This document shows, one piece after another, positions 2,971 to 64,000 of a DNA stretch of 64,000 bases. Made by a program: the position numbers and the translations under genes. Under the pieces are notes generated by a model. The model saw only the letters and a list, made by a program, of their open reading frames with translations. It ran no database searches and was not told where the DNA came from. The stretch comes from Acholoe squamosa (lineage: Eukaryota; Annelida; Polychaeta; Phyllodocida; Polynoidae): assembly GCA_949317995.1 (NCBI GenBank), contig OX439048.1:26231495-26295494 (forward strand), written 5' to 3'. Within the stretch, counting starts at the first letter, position 1. Every line of letters starts with the position of its first letter.

Positions 2971-4311
2971 ATTTAAGCCTGAAGGCCGTGTTTGGCGTTT
3001 GATGTAAGAAATGTCATTAGATCCTCTACATTAGATTTAAATACTGGCTTCAGCACATTCATCAAATCACTTGAGAGTTTAGCCATTCAAAGCAAGCACT
3101 AAGGAATGTACGTGGACGGTTCGATTTTCAACAAAGCGTCCAAATCATTCGGTAGCCTACTCCAAGCGCATCCTCTAATTTCACGTCCTCAGAACATATA
3201 GGCCTACAGAATTCGAGTACATGTAGGCAAAACTCTGAGCAATGCATCAATAGCTAGCCTATCAATGGCACAGTACATTGCTCCTCTAATGAAAAAAAAA
3301 CTCAACGTCGGATGAGCAGAGAATAAGGGGGGGGGGGCGCCATGTAATCTATACCCACATCACTACAGTAATCATAACCATACAGACTAGATGTCCTATC
3401 ATCAAACACCTTTATATAATAGACACAAGGACACAATACCTACTGTAGAAATGTTTATTGAATTGAGAGAAGGTGGCTAGATAGGAGACATCCCTGTCTG
3501 CTAGTGCACACACTGAGTGTTCATCATTTATGAATGGGTCATATATCGACCAGACCTCCATCAATGACACAGGGGTAAAGGACGGCCCGACATAGCACCT
3601 CGTTACCACCAGGTCCACTGTGAAGAATACAGACAAGAACCCGATATGTATACCCCTTTAACTGGTGAACCATAGTAGGCAGCCATTTTGCCACCCCCCC
3701 CCCTCCCAACTCTGCTGGTGCTTACAGGCTAGCAACTCCCCCAGAGGTGATGTGTGTCTTTAAAGTGATGTGTGTCTTCAATGGGCAGTAGAAACATCAG
3801 TTTAATATGAACTAGTTCTCCATTTGGTCTCTTCACCTTTTGCCATGGTGCTGTGGGCAGCTGATTTTGTCCATATACTATTTACAACAAGGGGCAGCGA
3901 GAAGAGGGTTGGAAATGTGATGATGTTGTAGGAGGTGGTGGCGCTATTTGTGGATGCTTTGTGTATTGAACTGACTTTAATCAATTGAGGTAAATAGATG
4001 AGCAGATGAGTTGGCAAGTGGAGTATGAGTGTTAAGTTAGGGATAGGCCTATACATGTATAAGGGTAAGGTGTAGGATATAGTACTGTATCATGTACGTG
4101 GACACGTTTAATATGGTGATGATGAGTGTGTCATGTAGCTGTCTATGAATCTATAATATGTGTGGTGTTAGCATTCGAACACCTCGATAAAACCTAATAC
4201 ACGGATTGCGTCCATGGAGATAAATTGTCTGAGATTAGGCCTATGTTAGCTCAATTCTGTCCTTGTTAAGTTCCTCTTCCTCATCGCTACTGATACCCAC
4301 TACGATATCTA
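2971..4311. other. Stretch with no recognisable gene
   Basis: This holds an 11-G run at 3327-3337, a C-rich run near 3694, and an 18-bp direct duplication around 3747-3780 (GTGATGTGTGTCTT twice). The open frames are short and on the minus strand, with no splice context I trust. Confidence 0.45.
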
Positions 4312-4319
4312 GCCGCCAC

Positions 4320-4450
4320 AGAGATGCCACTTTTCCTAACTTTTTAGGAATTCCGAAATTTTGGCCTTCATTCCTATAGGTATTTCCTATTGTAAATTGA
4401 GAAAATAAGGAGGATTTCCGAACTTTTGGGGATCAGTGAGTGGCATCCCT
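4320..4450. mobile_element. hAT-like MITE, 131 bp
   Basis: Terminal inverted repeats AGRGATGCCACT at 4320-4331 and 4439-4450 enclose a short AT-rich core whose subterminal parts also mirror each other (AATTCCGAAATTTTGG against CCAAAAGTTCGGAAATCC). The flanks are an 8-bp direct duplication, GCCGCCAC at 4312-4319 and GCCGCCAG at 4451-4458, matching at seven of eight bases. An 8-bp duplication with an RGRG-type terminus is the hAT signature. The element is too short to encode a transposase. Confidence 0.75.
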
Positions 4451-4519
4451 GCCGCCAGCATCTCTTTCAGGAGGTAATAATACCTATACCCCTTCTCTAC
4501 TCTATCTCAACATCCCTGG

Positions 4520-5984
4520 CAACAACCCTTACACCACACCATCCTAAACCACTGCCCTTCTCCCCCACCATCATTACACCACTCCATCATCAACCATTGC
4601 CCCTTTCCTCCACCACCTTTACACCACACCATCATCAACCATTGCCCCTCTCCTCCACCACCCTTACACCACACCATCATCAACCACTGCCCCTCTCCCC
4701 CACCACCCTTACACCACACCATCATCAACCACTGCCCCTCTCCTCCACCACCCTTACACCACACCATCATCAACCATTGCCCCTCTCCCCCACAACCTTT
4801 ACACCACACCATCATCAACCATTGCCCCTCTCCCCCACCACCTTTACACCACACCATCATCAACCATTGCCCCTCTCCCCCACAACCTTTACACCACTCC
4901 ATCATCAACCATTGCCCCTTTCCTCCACCACCCTTACACCACACCATGATCAACCATTGCCCCTCTCCCCCACCACCTTTACACCACACCATCATCAACC
5001 ATTGCCCCTCTCCCCCACAACCTTTACACCACACCATCATCAACCATTGCCCCTCTCCCCCACCACCTTTACACCACACCATCATCAACCATTGCCCCTC
5101 TCCACCACCACCCTTACACCACACCATCATTAACCACTGCCCCTCTCCTCCACCACCCTTACACCACACCATCATCAACCATTGCCCCTCTCCTCCATCA
5201 CCTTTACACCACACCATCATCAACCATTGCCCCTCTCCTCCACCACTTTTACACCACACCATCATCAACCATTGCCCCTCTCCCCCATTACATTTACACC
5301 ACACCATCATCAACCATTGCCCCTCGCCCCCACCACATTTACACCACACCATCATCAACCATTGCCCCTCTCCTCCACCACCCTTACACCACACCATCAT
5401 CAACCATTGCCCCTCTCCTCCACCACCCGTACACCACACCATCATCAACCATTGCCCCTCTCCACCACCACCCTTACACCACACCATCATTAACCACTGC
5501 CCCTCTCCTCCACCACCCTTACACCACACCATCATCAACCATTGCCCCTCTCCTCCATCACCTTTACACCACACCATCATCAACCATTGCCCCTCTCCTC
5601 CACCACCTTTACACCACACCATCATCAACCATTGCCCCTCTCCCCTACCACCATACACCACCCCATCATCAACCACTGCCCCTCTCCTCCACCACCCTTA
5701 CACCACACCATCATCAACCATTGCCCTTCTTCCCCACCACCTTTACACCACACCATCATCAACCATTGCCCCTCTCCACCACCACCCTTACACCACACCA
5801 TCATCAACCATTGCCCCTCTCCCCCACCACCCTTACACCACACCATCATCAATCATTGCCCCTCTCCCCCACCACCTTTACACACCATCATCAACCACTG
5901 CCCCTCTCCCCCACCACCCTTACACCACACCATCATCAATCATTGCCCCTCTCCCCCACCACCTTTACACACCATCACTAACCA
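4520..5984. repeat. Minisatellite, 45-bp unit, about 32 copies
   Basis: Units of the form CCCCTCTCCYCCACCACC, TTACACCACACCATCATCAA, CCATTG repeat without a break. Because 45 is a multiple of three, several frames stay open, giving 15-residue peptide repeats on both strands (HHHQPLPLSPTTFTP on plus, GGGGEGQWLMMVWCK on minus). I regard these as by-products. Units vary at a few positions, and a block of about 200 bp at 5080-5290 recurs almost exactly at 5440-5650, eight units later. The last units alternate 45 and 42 bp (87-bp period) after loss of one CAC. Confidence 0.9.
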
Positions 5985-6059
5985 CTGGCTTTTCGTCACC
6001 ATATCCTCATCAACACATCCAGGAATCCTTTCTCCTCCCCACTGAAGACCCTTCTCTAT

Positions 6060-23220: not shown

Positions 23221-23379
23221 CATGGGCTAACGGGCACCAAATTCCTTGTATAGTAGGATATCAAAACTCGTGGGCTGTGCCCACTCGTTTTGATATCCTA
23301 CCATACAAGGAATTCGGGCTGTGCCCACTCGTTTTGATATCCTACCATACAAGGAATTCGGTGCCCGTTAGCTCATACA
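23221..23379. mobile_element. Foldback element with internal 44-bp tandem duplication
   Basis: Left arm from 23221 (GGCTAACGGGCACC then AATTCCTTGTAT and GTAGGATATCAAAAC) is mirrored by the right arm ending at 23379, about 50 bp with few mismatches. The right side holds two exact 44-bp copies (23272-23315 and 23316-23359) of the segment starting GGGCTGTGCCCACTCG. The second copy probably arose by replication slippage at the hairpin. Confidence 0.75.
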
Positions 23380-46680: not shown

Positions 46681-47510
46681 CACTGCAAAAATTGTGTTTA
46701 GATTTTAAACATGTTTAGGTCTAAACACGTTTAAAATCTAAACATATAGGTTGGTTAGGTGTCTCATCAACCACATATTTAGGAATTAAACATTTTTCTT
46801 CTAATCACCTAAACATTTATGCTAAACATGTCCAGATGTTTAGACTGTAAACATATTGAATACTAGCTGTTTAGATTTAAACATCAATATGTTCATATAC
46901 TTAGATGTCAATTACACACCATGTAGCAGCACTACCTTTGAATAAACACCCTGCACACAATCACAATCAATTGCTGTTGAGAATATCCCCAAACTCCATG
47001 TAAGACATTGTTTCATCTCATAGAATGTCATCAGAATAGAGACAGCAATAGGGAATCGACTATATTCACCTAACATCAGCATAATTAGTGTAGACTAATC
47101 AATAAGTCCCATAATAGACACCTATTTCGTGGTATTTTGCAAAGGATAAAGCAATGTCCTCCCTGTCAACTGTTGTCATTTCTCAAGTCTCTCATTCTAA
47201 TGCAGTGTATACATACATGTATATACACCTGTGGCTGACTTCTTTAAGAGACTTTTGCACTTGTAAATACCTGCTGATGTCCCCCAGAAAGGAAATGAAA
47301 AAAAAGATAGTCCATTATTTTCTTAATGCATACATCTGTGAACCCAAATTTCTAAACATAAAATTTCATATCAGAAAAATTCTAAACCTAAACACCTAGA
47401 TATCTAAGCATATTGTTTGGCTAAATGTTTAGGAGGTTAATGTGATTACAAAAACGTTGCAAGAATATGTTTAGAATTGTGTTTAGGATCTAAACACCAC
47501 TTTTGCAATG
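46681..47510. mobile_element. CACTG-ended MITE, 830 bp (copy 1)
   Basis: It begins CACTGCAAAAATTGTGTTTAG and ends CTAAACACCACTTTTGCAATG, flanked by TA on both sides (46679-46680, 47511-47512). Subterminal DNA is packed with GTTTAGAT/ATCTAAAC words that pair within and between arms. An inverted copy of the same family lies at 49614-51029. No coding frame of note. Confidence 0.85.
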
Positions 47511-49613: not shown

Positions 49614-51029
49614 CACTGCAAAAATGGTGTTTAGATCCTAAACACAATTCTAAACATATTCTTGCAACGTTTTTGTAATCACATTAATATCCTAAACATG
49701 TTTAGCCAAACAATGTGCTTAGCTCAAGTGTTTAGAAATGTAGGTGTTTAGGTTAAAACTTTTGTGTTTAGATATATGAATTTTTGTGTTTAGGTGTTTA
49801 TGAATTTTTGTGTTTAGATGTTTAAATGATTTGATGGAGATTTAAGGTTTGCAGACATGTATGCATTAAAAAACAGAGATATATTTTGGGTTTTTTTCCC
49901 ATTTACTGGGGGGGGGGGACATCAGCAGGTATTTACTTGTCAAAGATGTCAGCCATAGTTATATATGTGTACATATAATACACACTGCATCAGAATGAGA
50001 GACTTGAGAAAGTACAACAGCTTGACAGGAAGGAAATTGCCTTATCTATTCCAGAATAACATCAAATAGGTGTCAGTCATGGATTTTATTGATTATTTTA
50101 TGGTAATGATGGTGGCATGAGGTGAATCTAGTCAATTTTCTATTGCCCTTTCTATTCACATGACATTCTATGAAATGAAACCATGATAAACATGGGATTT
50201 AGGGACATTTGTCACAACAATTGATTATAACTGTGTGCAGATAGTCCAGTCAAAGGTAGTGCTGCTACCTGGTGTGGATTCAACATCCAAGTATCTAAAC
50301 ATATTGATGTTTAAATCTAAACACCTATTATTCAACTGTCTCAACTCTAAACATCTAAACATGTTTAGCATAAATGTGACACAACTTAGGAAAACGTAAC
50401 ATTACGGGGATTAGTGTCATTTTTGGCCACTAGGTGGCCAATAAGTGTAAAACATGGTGCATCCTCATACATTGATGGGGGATGTTAGTCCACTTCTCCT
50501 TATCTGATTTTGATAAACAAAATATCTAAATGATCCCCAAGACTTTCTTTTTCCAATTCAAATTGTTATAGTTTAATGGGTTCATCTATATCATCTTGGA
50601 CAACTGCTTGCTTGGGTCAATTAGATATCCCTAAATTAGCAAAGGTCCCATTCCCTGTCAATTGACCTATAAAGGTACTGTCAGGGCTAGGTTTTATAAT
50701 ATGTTTGGGTTGTAAAAGGCACTTATGCCAATCATTTTGGGTCTTTTGTTTTTAAAATATGTCCCAAAGACCTACTCAAAGTTTCTGAAGAATAACAAGA
50801 AAAATACAAACATATTTCACTTGGTTTTGCCTCCTCGATTCTGCAAATAGCTCAAAATCCCCATAATGTTACCTTTTCCCGTGCTGTGTCACAAATGTTT
50901 ATGTAGTTAGAATAAAAGTGTTCATTTCCTAAATGTGTAGTTCATGAGACACCTAACTGACCTATATGTTTAGGTTTAAACGTGTTTAGACCTAAACATG
51001 TTTAAAATCTAAACACCATTTTTGCAGTG
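49614..51029. mobile_element. CACTG-ended MITE (copy 2, inverted) with nested insertion
   Basis: It begins CACTGCAAAAATGGTGTTTAG and ends CTAAACACCATTTTTGCAGTG, flanked by TA on both sides (49612-49613, 51030-51031). Its right end read in reverse matches the left end of copy 1 almost base for base over about 85 bp, so the two copies face opposite ways. Removing the 519-bp insertion at 50375-50893 leaves 897 bp, close to copy 1. Confidence 0.85.
50375..50893. mobile_element. Nested element, 519 bp, about 35-bp inverted ends
   Basis: Ends TGTGACACAACTTAGGAAAA and its mirror (right end read in reverse TGTGACACAGCACGGGAAAA) continue with GTAACATTAYGGGGATT. It interrupts the CACTG copy. Copy 1 reads CATAAATGTTTA without a break at the same place, so the junction CATAAA / AATGTTTA implies a short (2-5 bp) target duplication. 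The interior is non-coding. Confidence 0.75.
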
Positions 51030-59577: not shown

Positions 59578-60043
59578 GTGAGCTGCTCCCTGCACAGCAT
59601 TTGACAGAAGATCTTTATGAGACACCAGGATTTAGAACGTATCGAAGGCACGGTCTTCTTTCCTATACTATTGACACATTATCAAGGACATTCATGAGGA
59701 GTTGTGGTGCTGCCTGGTGCCAATATTATTTAGGTTTGGTATAGACCCCTAAGTATGGAATCTGAACGAATGTTTACCACAGCAACTTTTGTTTACTCAA
59801 GGCGTTGGGGTTCCTGGGATCACCATTATCTTCATTTTCTACTTGTTAAAGTGAGCACAAACCAGATGTAAACTTATTTTGTTCCTAAAACATTTATTCA
59901 TCACCATTCACGCCTCTGGTATTAATACTGCAATTGCATGCGTATTCAATTTCATTGAGGAATATATCCTCACAAATAGCCTTCATGCAACGGTACACAA
60001 TGTGTAATATTCAGACTATAGAGCCGTGTTTTCTTCCTCCAAC

Positions 60044-62217
60044 GATAGTACAGTATAGGATGGGTTACTCCATACAGTCCTATAGTGAAGGCCAACAGCC
60101 CTCTACCCCCCATGAAACTAGGTGCCTTGTGTGCTCAGTATTGGGCCCTATGTAGGATAAGGGGGTTTATGGAGCTATCATGTATCTTTATGAAAGGGAT
60201 ACCACATGAAACGAAGGGACCATCTAAACCAAAAAATCTTGCTTAATCCTTTATTTTCAGAATTTGACCAAAAGTACTCAAAAATGATGTATGATGAGGG
60301 AAATATTTTGAAAATGTCCAAAAATCTTTAGATATACAACATGTCAATCAGAGTTAATACCTAAATCCACATACCAAAAATGTCTTCCTATCTTTCAGTA
60401 AGACAAGTGCTGTGCCTGTGCATTGCACTGCCTATCCCGCATACAGCATATCAATTGTGTACCTATCACTCATCCTGCCTATCTCTTCAATCCAAAACAT
60501 CTACAGTTAAATCTGGTTATATCTTAAAAGGCTTAACTTATGATGTTTCTCCATCACCTTACCTTATCTTATTTGTTCTGTCTTTCCTTTAGTCTACCTG
60601 TCCTCAATTTGCCTACAATTCATTTTATCTATCCCTCATGGTGACTATCCCCCAGACCCTCATCCCTCATGTTTAATCTGCACTGTTTGTCTGCTATATA
60701 AGGCTTTATTGGTTGACAGTACATTCCTTACTATGTCTAGTATTTCAATTCTACCTGTCCCTAATAAAGCCTATCATGAAGCGTACCTATCCCTCATTGT
60801 GTCTATCCTCCAACTCTGCACATCCCTCATATTTGACTTGTATATCTGTCCCTAGTACCCATGTTTTCATTTTTCATGTTTGCTCATCTTACAAGGTACT
60901 CTGTGCCTTTTCCTCAAATTGTTAATTGCTCACACTACCTTTCCCCCTTGCTACCCATCCTTACCTATCCCCCATGTTTTCTATATGGCTTTTTAACCCA
61001 TCTCAACTCTCTTCACCTACCTATGTCACAACCAACCTTCATTATTTATACATGTACCTTTCATTCATGCTTCATATCTTTTACTTTACCTATAAAATGA
61101 TATGAATGGAGGATAGTCATAATGGGGGATAGGTTTATTTCACAAGGCATAGAACTTGAGACAGGTGGAAGAAATTGTACACAAACTGAGATATTTATAG
61201 AAAGAGCGGGTTAGACTGACTGAGCTGAGATGGTAAGAAAGCCATGTGGAGGTCATGAAGGATAGGCATTCAAAAGGTTTTTTTAGCAAGGGGGATAGGT
61301 AGTATGAACAATATCCTGTTTGAGGGATGGGCTCAGAGAGAACCTTGTAAAATGAGCAAATGTTAGATAAAAAGAAAATATGGGTGCCAGGGACAGATAT
61401 GCAATTCAAATATGAGGGATATGCAGAGTTGGGTATAATGAAGGATAGGTAGGCTTTATGATAGGCATTGTTAAGGATAGGTAGGATCAAAATGGTAGAT
61501 ATGATAACCAATATACCATTAAGGCCTAGATAAACAGATGAACAATACAGTTTAAACTTAATGGTCTGAGGGATAGTCACCATGAGGGATAGGTAAAATG
61601 AATGATAGGCAGATTGAGGATAGGTAAACTATGGGAAACTAGGACCAGAGAAGATAAGGTAAAGTGAGGAGTAAGCTTTAGTAATTAGGCCTTTTGGGAG
61701 ATAGCCTTACTTAACTCAAGATGCTTTGGATTCAAGAAATAGGCAGTATGAGTGATATGTAGAATAAGGGATAGGCAGTATGTGAGATAAGCAGAGTAAT
61801 GCACAGTTAGAATACTTGTCAGATTGGGAGATAGGCAGACATTTGGATATGTGCATTGAGGTACTAGTTTACGTGTTTTGTCTATGAAGATTTCTCATCA
61901 TTTTGAATATTATTTCATTACATCTTTTAAATATCTTCTTCATCAAACCTCATTTTTGGGTACTTTTAGTCAATTTCTGAGAATCATAATTACAAAATTT
62001 CAGGACTTTTTGGTCTAGGTGGTTCCATCTTCCCCTTTAGTATCACCCTGATAAAGGAATACCACAGCTCTATAAACCACCTAATCCTCTATAGAAATCA
62101 ACAATGAAGACACAAGGGCACCTAGTTTCATAGGGGGAGGGGTAGAGGGGGTGTCCTGTCACACTCTACCCATAGACTTTGCTCTCAGTGACCCCTTCTA
62201 TACAGTGCTATAGTATC
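60044..62217. repeat. Long inverted repeat, about 1.05-kb arms
   Basis: The left arm from 60044 (GATAGTACAGTATAGGA) and the right arm ending at 62217 (read in reverse GATACTATAGCACTGTATAG) mirror each other across the whole 2.17 kb. Examples: ATGAAACTAGGTGCC near 60112 and 62124; TCAATYTGCCTAYMATTCAT near 60605 and 61600; and CATATTTGACTTGTATATCT mirrored at about 61403. I judge identity at roughly 75-85 percent, with small indels. The centre is near 61.1 kb. Both arms are studded with CTATCCCTCAT (right arm ATGAGGGATAG). No terminal target duplication was seen. Open frames on the two arms encode similar peptides only because of the duplication. Confidence 0.9.
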
Positions 62218-62219
62218 TA

Positions 62220-64000
62220 AACTTCTTGCTTCCTCTGCGCACATCTTGAACAAAACTATGTGGTCCCCTATATAATGCTTGTAAGGCGGGATATATGATG
62301 GGTAGTACCCTGGATGTGGAATACAATTATACATGCACCCATGGGCCACACTGCCAGGCTCCTCCTGCTGGCAGGGTGGCCGCCATGGGGGGAGGCAATT
62401 GGCGACCATGTGAATAGTGTTGGCGCTGTCAAACTCATGACCAGTCCTCAGTTAAGACATTGTCCTCTGGCATCCATTTAATTCACACAGATGAGTTTGG
62501 CTTTCATGTCTCTAGGCCTACCTTTAGCTACCTCTTGCTGGTCTTTATTCAGAAAGGGCTTTATCTTCATGATGGAAAAGGACCTCAGATCCCTCAGTTA
62601 TTTGTTTTGAACGGAAGCTGTAGCCTTAAAAAGAAATTGTGTCTTTCTACTCTTTCCTCTTTCACCATTGGTCTCTTGGCAAAGCTAGGTGTCTACTCTA
62701 GATGAAAAGGAAGGGGGAAGGTAAGCACCTTAGAGGCACCCCTATCAAACATCGCCTCTAACCTTACCGGTGCCTAACAGTGTCAGGATGAACCTGCTCG
62801 TTAAACTAACAAATGATGCCCTGCCTTAAACCTTTAGTGACAGCATGTTGTCTCAGGCTTCTTTGATCCTCATTGTGGTACTGCAAAAGTGAATCATACT
62901 GACAATTAAGGAGTGCATCAACTTCATAGGGTTGACTTGATACTTCAATGTAGTAGTACTGAACTGCTCAACAAGACTCTCTGAATCCAAAAGGCCATAT
63001 TACATTTAAGCATTTTTCAGTCCTTAAATGTTTAAGATATACACAGGATACCTAGACCTGTCTCACGCCTCCTGGCGGGGAGCTGGGCCGATGATGTCCA
63101 ATTTGTGATGTATGGGACATGCATGTACCTATATGCACCACTCCGATGTCTCTTATGAGGTGTCATTCAGACAAAATTACATATGTATACTTCTACACAT
63201 TCTACTGTATAGTGCTTAACCATGGCCCGAGGTTGCATCAGTGCTCATGGAAATTCATCCCAATGGAAAATATCATTTGAATAGTTGGCTATATCTATAG
63301 ATGATGGAAATTGAAATTATTGGTAAGCTGCCATAGGCTTTGTATTGCCGAGGTGATGTAGATGTTCCCTTCATTACATTTTTCCCCAATCCGTCTAGAT
63401 GTAGGGATGGGTATTACGGTTGATGAATCAAATTTGATAAGAGACATGTTTAAGATTTATGGTGCGGCGGTTTCATGATATCAAAACAAGTCTACATGTA
63501 CATACTTGACATCGACGACACGACACATTGAGGATCATAAATGAGCATAATATGGCCTATTTTATAAAGTATGGAGAGGGTTAGTTGTATAAACCCCGAA
63601 TGAGGAAGACGCATCATATACCATTAGATATCAACTAAAAATGCATATATTTTAACGGAATGTCTCGCCATATAACTATGTAGTAAAACACCATGGGAAG
63701 CTTTATGGGCGTTAATCGGCACGTAAATAGGCCCCAGTTCTGGTTCAGTGGTCCACATGGGTGACCGCATTCACCAGGTCATGGGGTTCTATCTCATGAG
63801 AAGACCAACCATTGAAAGTGACATTACAGTCTTTACTGAAGGATGTGGGCTGTAAGAGTAACATAAATCATTGAGGATAGTTTTAAAAGGTGTATCCTCT
63901 CTAAGATGTGTGGATTATAGCTTTCAGTTTGGCCTTCTCTCGTAAACGTCAGGTTTAATCTATTATACTTTAAACAGAATGAATATATAATGGTCTTATA
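62220..64000. other. Stretch with no supported gene
   Basis: A CAAG/GTAAGC-like donor word (AAGGTAAGCACC near 62720) lies after a short open frame, without a good acceptor. Apart from a tRNA-like sequence at 63741-63795, nothing else is supported. Confidence 0.4.
63741..63795 (+). repeat. Possible tRNA-derived SINE fragment
   Basis: TGGTTCAGTGG fits box A exactly, and GGGTTCTATCTC resembles box B with two mismatches, 42 bp apart. No cloverleaf or poly-A tail is apparent. Confidence 0.25.

Follow-up and report, generated by a model that had tools for sequence, protein, structure and literature searches.

The window, a 64,000-nucleotide stretch of the Acholoe squamosa genome (contig OX439048.1 of assembly GCA_949317995.1, positions 26,231,495 to 26,295,494), carries near its right-hand end a large inverted repeat, which is a transposon insertion and whose parts are set out in Table 1. 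The initial annotation had placed the ends of this repeat at 60044 and 62217; we correct them to 60040 and 62228.

Table 1. Parts of the element and its flanking duplications, in window coordinates
Feature	Position	Strand	Basis or remark
Left target-site duplication CTTCCTC	60033..60039	.	Identical to 62229-62235
Whole element, very probably a non-autonomous foldback-type DNA transposon	60040..62228	+	2,189 bp; ends from comparison with 59 other loci
Left tip (CAACGATAGTACAGTATAGG...)	60040..60084	+	Family start is CAA[GT]GAT in most copies
Left arm	60040..61009	+	Alignment of the arms and genome matches
GATAGGYA exact sites, left arm (n = 5)	60429..60969	-	Highest coordinates 60436, 60467, 60483, 60791, 60969
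Central stretch, weak arm-to-arm similarity	61010..61221	.	About 210 bp
Right arm, mirror of the left arm	61222..62228	-	75.8% identical overall in the window copy
GATAGGYA exact sites, right arm (n = 10)	61261..61837	+	Several 15-16 bp apart
Starts of the right-arm GATAGGYA sites	61261, 61294, 61444, 61460, 61476, 61588, 61604, 61619, 61770, 61830	+	
Right tip (...CTTCTTG)	62184..62228	-	Comparison with the right tips of other copies
Right target-site duplication CTTCCTC	62229..62235	.	Perfect 7-bp match to the left copy

Long inverted arms, a feature of foldback and long-TIR transposons, make up most of the element. In the copy at this locus (the window copy) they are collinear and agree over 1,017 aligned columns at the identity given in Table 1, and an inverted-repeat search of the window listed 20 pairs, the five longest of which (64 to 199 nt, 76 to 89% complementary) lie one inside another in a consistent order. 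The two mirrored, collinear arms initially described are real. The similarity was also said to run the full length of the arms with almost no spacer between them; the collinearity holds, but in the weakly matching center likeness, taken per 50 columns, sinks to 0.52 and 0.38, and the terminal ~40 bp at either end of the element also match each other poorly (0.46, with gaps counted as mismatches). The limits of this central stretch agree with matches to the opposite arms of other copies, which stop near 61009 on the left and start near 61222 on the right. Near its right tip, the window copy contains about ten bases that the commoner right tips lack. Searched against Pfam, the longest open frame inside the element (162 aa) gave no match, and a search of the window against Rfam at gathering thresholds yielded no structured-RNA match.

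The window copy is one older member of a high-copy family. Left ends within 3 mismatches number at least 487 in the 1.48-Gb source genome (reversed control, 0), and right ends in the form typical of one subfamily number 208 genome-wide (control, 0). Searches with the arms gave at least 99 matches for the left arm, from the best 40 scored of 2,715 first-look candidates, and at least 77 for the right arm, from the best 40 scored of 1,956. Single-arm copies had been suggested as a target for such searches; most of the places found match both arms, in opposite orientation. Copies are dispersed over the chromosomes, with the places used lying on contigs C1 to C18 and one listed place on C42 (63 contigs in all), and 58 of the 100 left ends listed from the 487 could be paired with a listed right end, at a spacing of 2,228 to 2,297 bp in 43 of these 58. 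For detailed comparison we assembled 60 loci, consisting of the window copy, 39 places from the left-arm search, and 20 from the listed ends (10 of which were chosen for unusual length); L013 and L071 are one insertion, and the 60 loci therefore represent 59 distinct copies.

Both ends were recognized in 50 of the 60 loci, and a perfect 7-bp direct repeat flanks 46 of these 50. Among the other four, two have one mismatch and two (L042 and L047) lack a duplication, the left end of L047 not being recognizable. The excluded loci, in which the right end was unrecognized in the fetched stretch, are L013, L019, L024, L026, L031, L036, L040, L041, L045, and L046; the left end of L024 was also mis-set by the script, owing to a small insertion within the tip. 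As a control, left flanks were paired with the right flanks of other copies, which produced 2 perfect 7-bp matches in 2,450 pairings. Exact flank repeats of 4 to 6 and 8 to 11 bp amount to one in all across the 50 two-ended loci, none of which has a duplication of 8 to 11 bp such as those made by hAT (8 bp) or Mutator/FB elements. The duplicated sites are themselves palindrome-like: of the 46 perfect duplications, 44 have T or C at position 2, where A does not occur, and 41 have A or G at position 6, where C does not occur, and the target profile correlates with its own reverse complement at 0.754, the largest value among 1,000 position shuffles being 0.655. The commonest target core is CTATAAT, with low information per position.

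Several copies depart from the usual form. Four (L074, L075, L076, and L077) have internal deletions that reduce them to 1.3 to 1.9 kb, with intact ends, perfect 7-bp duplications, and breakpoints at varied places within the arms. L077 and L078 lie head to head about 1.25 kb apart (G000:C6:55130550-55136250), a possible rearrangement site. L042 has an unlike right tip, ATCCTTG, which is nearer to the mirror of the left tip, and its target duplication does not match; it is possibly an older tip form or a chimera.

We aligned the 34 copies that are 2,100 to 2,320 bp long with no more than one mismatch in the duplication (16 two-ended loci were excluded on length or duplication). A young cluster holds 27 of the 34, with a mean identity of 95.8% and a best pair at 99.3%, and such near-identical pairs record recent movement of the family. 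The window copy is among the seven outside this cluster, from which it differs by about 10%. Within copies, the two arms are on average 77.8% identical (sd 1.3, range 71.8 to 79.8%; 34 near-full copies), and the near-identical arms that are usual in, but do not strictly define, foldback elements are absent from all 34. Because copies that are up to 99.3% identical to one another have arms that are just 72 to 80% alike, the divergence of the arms predates dispersal, and the similar arm likeness across all 34 copies indicates that young copies inherit the difference. The arms of the majority sequence of older copies (six, including the window copy and excluding L085) are 81.8% alike, versus 79.0% in young subfamily A, as expected of arms drifting apart in a mobile lineage, although a majority taken over few old copies may inflate the former value. 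The substitutions between the arms had been read as a sign that the structure is not brand new; the divergence is there, but since the repeat is a dispersed transposon, most of it was already carried by the mobile ancestor and gives no age for the locus.

Each arm is a degenerate array of 16-bp units around the word GATAGGYA, in a single orientation per arm and mirrored in the other. The arms match themselves best at a shift of 16 bases, with scores of 0.355 and 0.371 in the young copy L018 and 0.331 and 0.357 in the window copy (shuffled sequences, 0.27, sd 0.01). Allowing one mismatch, L018 has 24 GATAGGYA words in its right arm and 22 in its left, and the window copy has 16 and 17, respectively, where about 1.4 per arm would be expected; the wrong strand has 0 and 1 in each case. 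The recurring word CTATCCCTCAT, which had drawn attention to the arms in the first place, is part of this unit in its opposite-strand reading, and all 12 of its occurrences in the window within 1 mismatch lie inside the element (1.93 expected, and 0 of 100 shuffles reach 12). The 16-bp period in both arms likewise bears out the suggestion that an arm was formerly a tandem repeat.

Extra likeness between the arms is found at these words. In the majority sequence of subfamily A, the arms agree at 160 of 175 word columns (0.914) versus 592 of 757 other columns (0.782), and the corresponding values are 0.918 versus 0.780 for subfamily B and 0.934 versus 0.817 for the older set. A neutral simulation with the same column picking, which had more words per arm (32.5), gave an agreement of 0.792 (sd 0.022) at word columns. 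The window copy has a smaller word-column advantage (0.828 and 0.875 versus 0.76). Subfamily A and the older set differ at 9 of 380 word columns and 103 of 1,892 other columns (P = 0.009); A versus B (P = 0.11) and B versus the older set (P = 0.07) go in the same direction, above 0.05. Word columns also vary less among young copies (0.010 versus 0.0167 in A and 0.0122 versus 0.0149 in B), and low mutability may therefore explain part of the word conservation. By analogy with Galileo (see below), the GATAGGYA arrays are probably transposase-binding sites through which the ends of the element are marked and paired. We consider it likely that the element is a DNA transposon of the foldback type, non-autonomous, with arms that serve as transposase-binding arrays.

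The 7-bp duplication, the CA..TG ends, and the long, internally repeated arms make a Galileo-like transposase of the P superfamily the likeliest mover. Since no transposase-coding partner was found in the searches described here, we infer the superfamily from these traits, and lean slightly toward a Galileo-like member of the P superfamily. The genome has 20 matches to P-superfamily transposase domains, two of which are in one locus, as well as 24 to hAT and 36 to MULE domains, and none of these lies within 20 kb of the 100 left ends listed from the 487. The 20 P loci, examined with 1.5-kb flanks, lack the family tips and, save for one exact site, the repeated word. No transposase was recognized between family tips among the 58 paired ends, of which those of unusual length and a sample were read. 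The four longest end pairs (4.5 to 7.9 kb; L068 to L071) are copies interrupted at differing points; of the three inserts read, that of L069 has a reverse transcriptase, that of L070 has DDE_Tnp_4, and that of L071 has no frame of at least 120 aa. Such long pairs were considered as the autonomous partner and rejected, as their inserts interrupt otherwise complete copies. A pattern describing a partner with just the 20-bp tip in common has two sites in the genome, with one mismatch each; a stricter pattern, which would also miss most unrelated interiors, has none.

Three of the P-type transposase loci (L061, L062, and L066), situated on three chromosomes, are 97 to 99% identical over up to 3.3 kb and, by their sequence, probably represent a P-like family that was recently active in this genome.

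Among described elements, the closest likeness is to Galileo of Drosophila, above all to its many two-arm "2 TIR" copies without transposase (PMC3573991); Galileo shares with the element long, internally repeated arms, a 7-bp duplication, and a palindromic target. Galileo terminal inverted repeats measure 0.5 to 1.2 kb, with internal tandem repeats in some subfamilies, two of which have THAP binding sites, and the THAP domain of the Galileo transposase binds one site close to the end and others within the arm tandem repeats (PMC3688188); it is by analogy with this binding that we ascribe a role as binding sites to the word arrays. Galileo duplications are mostly 7 bp and its target is palindromic (PMC4168063), whereas those of the P element and zebrafish Pdre2 are 8 bp (PMC10983969), and a length of 7 bp therefore points to Galileo inside the superfamily. 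In contrast to Galileo, the element does not match the target GTANTAC, its repeat unit is 16 bp, and a coding copy was not found in our genome searches. The arms within one Galileo copy are 98 to 100% identical, strongly unlike arms being those of chimeras without matching duplications (PMC3573991); here, 72 to 80% arm likeness goes together with matching duplications. Low arm likeness (78%) is the unusual feature of the family. In the parts of the literature that our searches covered, no earlier description recognizably matched this family.

The same layout could also be moved by a hAT or Mutator-like transposase that makes an unusual 7-bp duplication, which we regard as possible but doubtful. 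Both kinds of domain are present in the genome in the numbers given above, and the tip CAAGG, the T at position 2 of the duplication, and the A at its second-last position are what we take to be hAT-like habits. The hAT target-site duplication is 8 bp, whereas 46 of 50 duplications here are perfect at 7 bp and none is 8 to 11 bp. Long arms of short tandem repeats also occur in the FB elements of Drosophila and the TU elements of sea urchins, with duplications of 9 and 8 bp, respectively. According to the report on Tetris (PMC4079207), the majority of foldback elements seem to belong to Mutator, which would favor a Mutator-like mover; against it, the Mutator/Foldback element Tm1 of root-knot nematodes has duplications of 8 to 10 bp (PMC3169594). 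Tm1 resembles the element in that its terminal inverted repeats are mostly 13- to 15-bp tandem repeats, with asymmetric outer motifs and MITE-like members, but it has no clear target consensus and its arms are 93% identical on average, versus 78% here (PMC3169594). Tetris, from Drosophila virilis, is similarly a non-autonomous foldback element with internal tandem repeats for which that report describes no autonomous partner, but it differs in its 8- to 10-bp duplications and repeat units of ~220 bp (PMC4079207).

In the reading that we favor, an inverted duplication would have given rise to the two mirrored arms, and a transposase made elsewhere in the genome would bind the repeated words of both arms, bring the ends of the element together, excise it, and insert it at a new palindrome-like 7-bp site in cut-and-paste fashion. 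The arms would still be alike because of this origin and because the binding words were kept, more than through a need for RNA pairing. The mirrored arrays offer a concrete candidate set of transposase-binding sites, and recent mobility of a foldback element whose arms are 20 to 28% different implies that movement does not require identical arms. If the assignment is true, a Galileo-like foldback element has been recently active in a large genome unlike that of a fly, the Galileo reports that our literature search returned being mainly on drosophilids. High-copy inverted repeats of this kind can seed chromosomal inversions, as Galileo is reported to have done (PMC2775673).

A further alternative is that this is a hairpin locus whose arms are kept pairable by selection, for example because a transcript feeds RNA interference, and this we judge unlikely. 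A read-through RNA of the element would form a long, interrupted duplex, as modeled by folding: the predicted MFE is -1004 kcal/mol for the window copy and -1172 kcal/mol for L018, versus -546 to -571 kcal/mol for three shuffles of L018 (the control being made from L018, not from the window copy). Uninterrupted pairing runs in the window copy reach 34 pairs with G-U counted. A long hairpin is predicted, as in the initial annotation, in interrupted form. Such a strong predicted fold would suit a hairpin locus, but about 22% of positions differ between the arms, the extra arm similarity sits in the repeated words, and pairs continue to be lost between subfamilies, since the step from the older to the subfamily A majority sequence turned 48 Watson-Crick pairs into mismatches and created pairs at 15 former mismatches. 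Nor are changes that keep a G-U pair in excess, as 22 of 70 single changes do so, approximately the level estimated from the 71:41 excess of transitions.

Evidence in favor of pairing comes from matched changes. All five double changes between the older and subfamily A majority sequences end as Watson-Crick pairs, four from another Watson-Crick pair, but subfamily B has one double change and no compensatory one. The true pairing has 7 covarying pairs, whereas 24 slid pairings, which begin with fewer matched columns, average 1.4 and never exceed 4; against the fairer control of same-base partners, there are 3 versus 0.89 with 34 copies (reached in 8 of 200 draws) and 3 versus 0.43 with 27 copies (reached in 3 of 200). 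The same weak covariation would also arise from inherited polymorphism or from rare conversion between the arms.

Selection or gene conversion had both been offered to account for the preserved arms. Changes toward the base of the opposite arm do exceed expectation (127 versus 91 in subfamily A, 337 versus 218 in the 27-copy set), and sites at which the arms differ are more variable than those at which they agree (0.022 versus 0.014 and 0.043 versus 0.020, respectively); both could result from ancestral states that were retained, or from rare conversion. Gene-conversion tracts in subfamily A were rejected, as switched sites form 2 adjacent pairs versus 2.4 expected and thus do not cluster. The 27-copy set has 29 such pairs versus 20.1 expected (sd 3.7), an excess that we read as due to five subfamily B copies sharing states. 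Of the original suggestion there remain the opposite-base changes and a weak excess of double changes, without clustering of sites or a G-U excess. The matched double changes and covariation hint weakly that one arm is now and then corrected from the other or that pairing is under constraint, and a mobile element whose arms are truly constrained to pair, whether as a hairpin (of DNA at transposition, or of RNA) or through repair of one arm from the other in the folded state, strikes us as improbable.

A local inverted duplication or assembly artifact at the window site alone, for which nothing speaks beyond the palindrome itself, has a negligible probability, as hundreds of ends lie elsewhere and 46 examined copies have their own perfect target duplications, and the recurrence of this architecture at dozens of independent places rules out the assembly artifact that the initial annotation had allowed for.

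Other repeats are present in the window. A tandem array at 4525-5970 comprises 32 copies of a 45-bp unit and is strongly C-rich on the plus strand (GC skew of -0.705 in 4001-6000); as 45 is a multiple of 3, its frames stay open on both strands, for 535 aa on the plus strand and 396 aa on the minus strand. At 23272-23361, a 44-bp unit is present as two perfect tandem copies, and the duplication is, for that reason, probably recent. Small arrays of TTTAG/CTAAA words, some units of which are self-complementary, occur at 46695-46745, 47346-47392, 49744-49824, and 50966-51004, within a span of ~4.3 kb.
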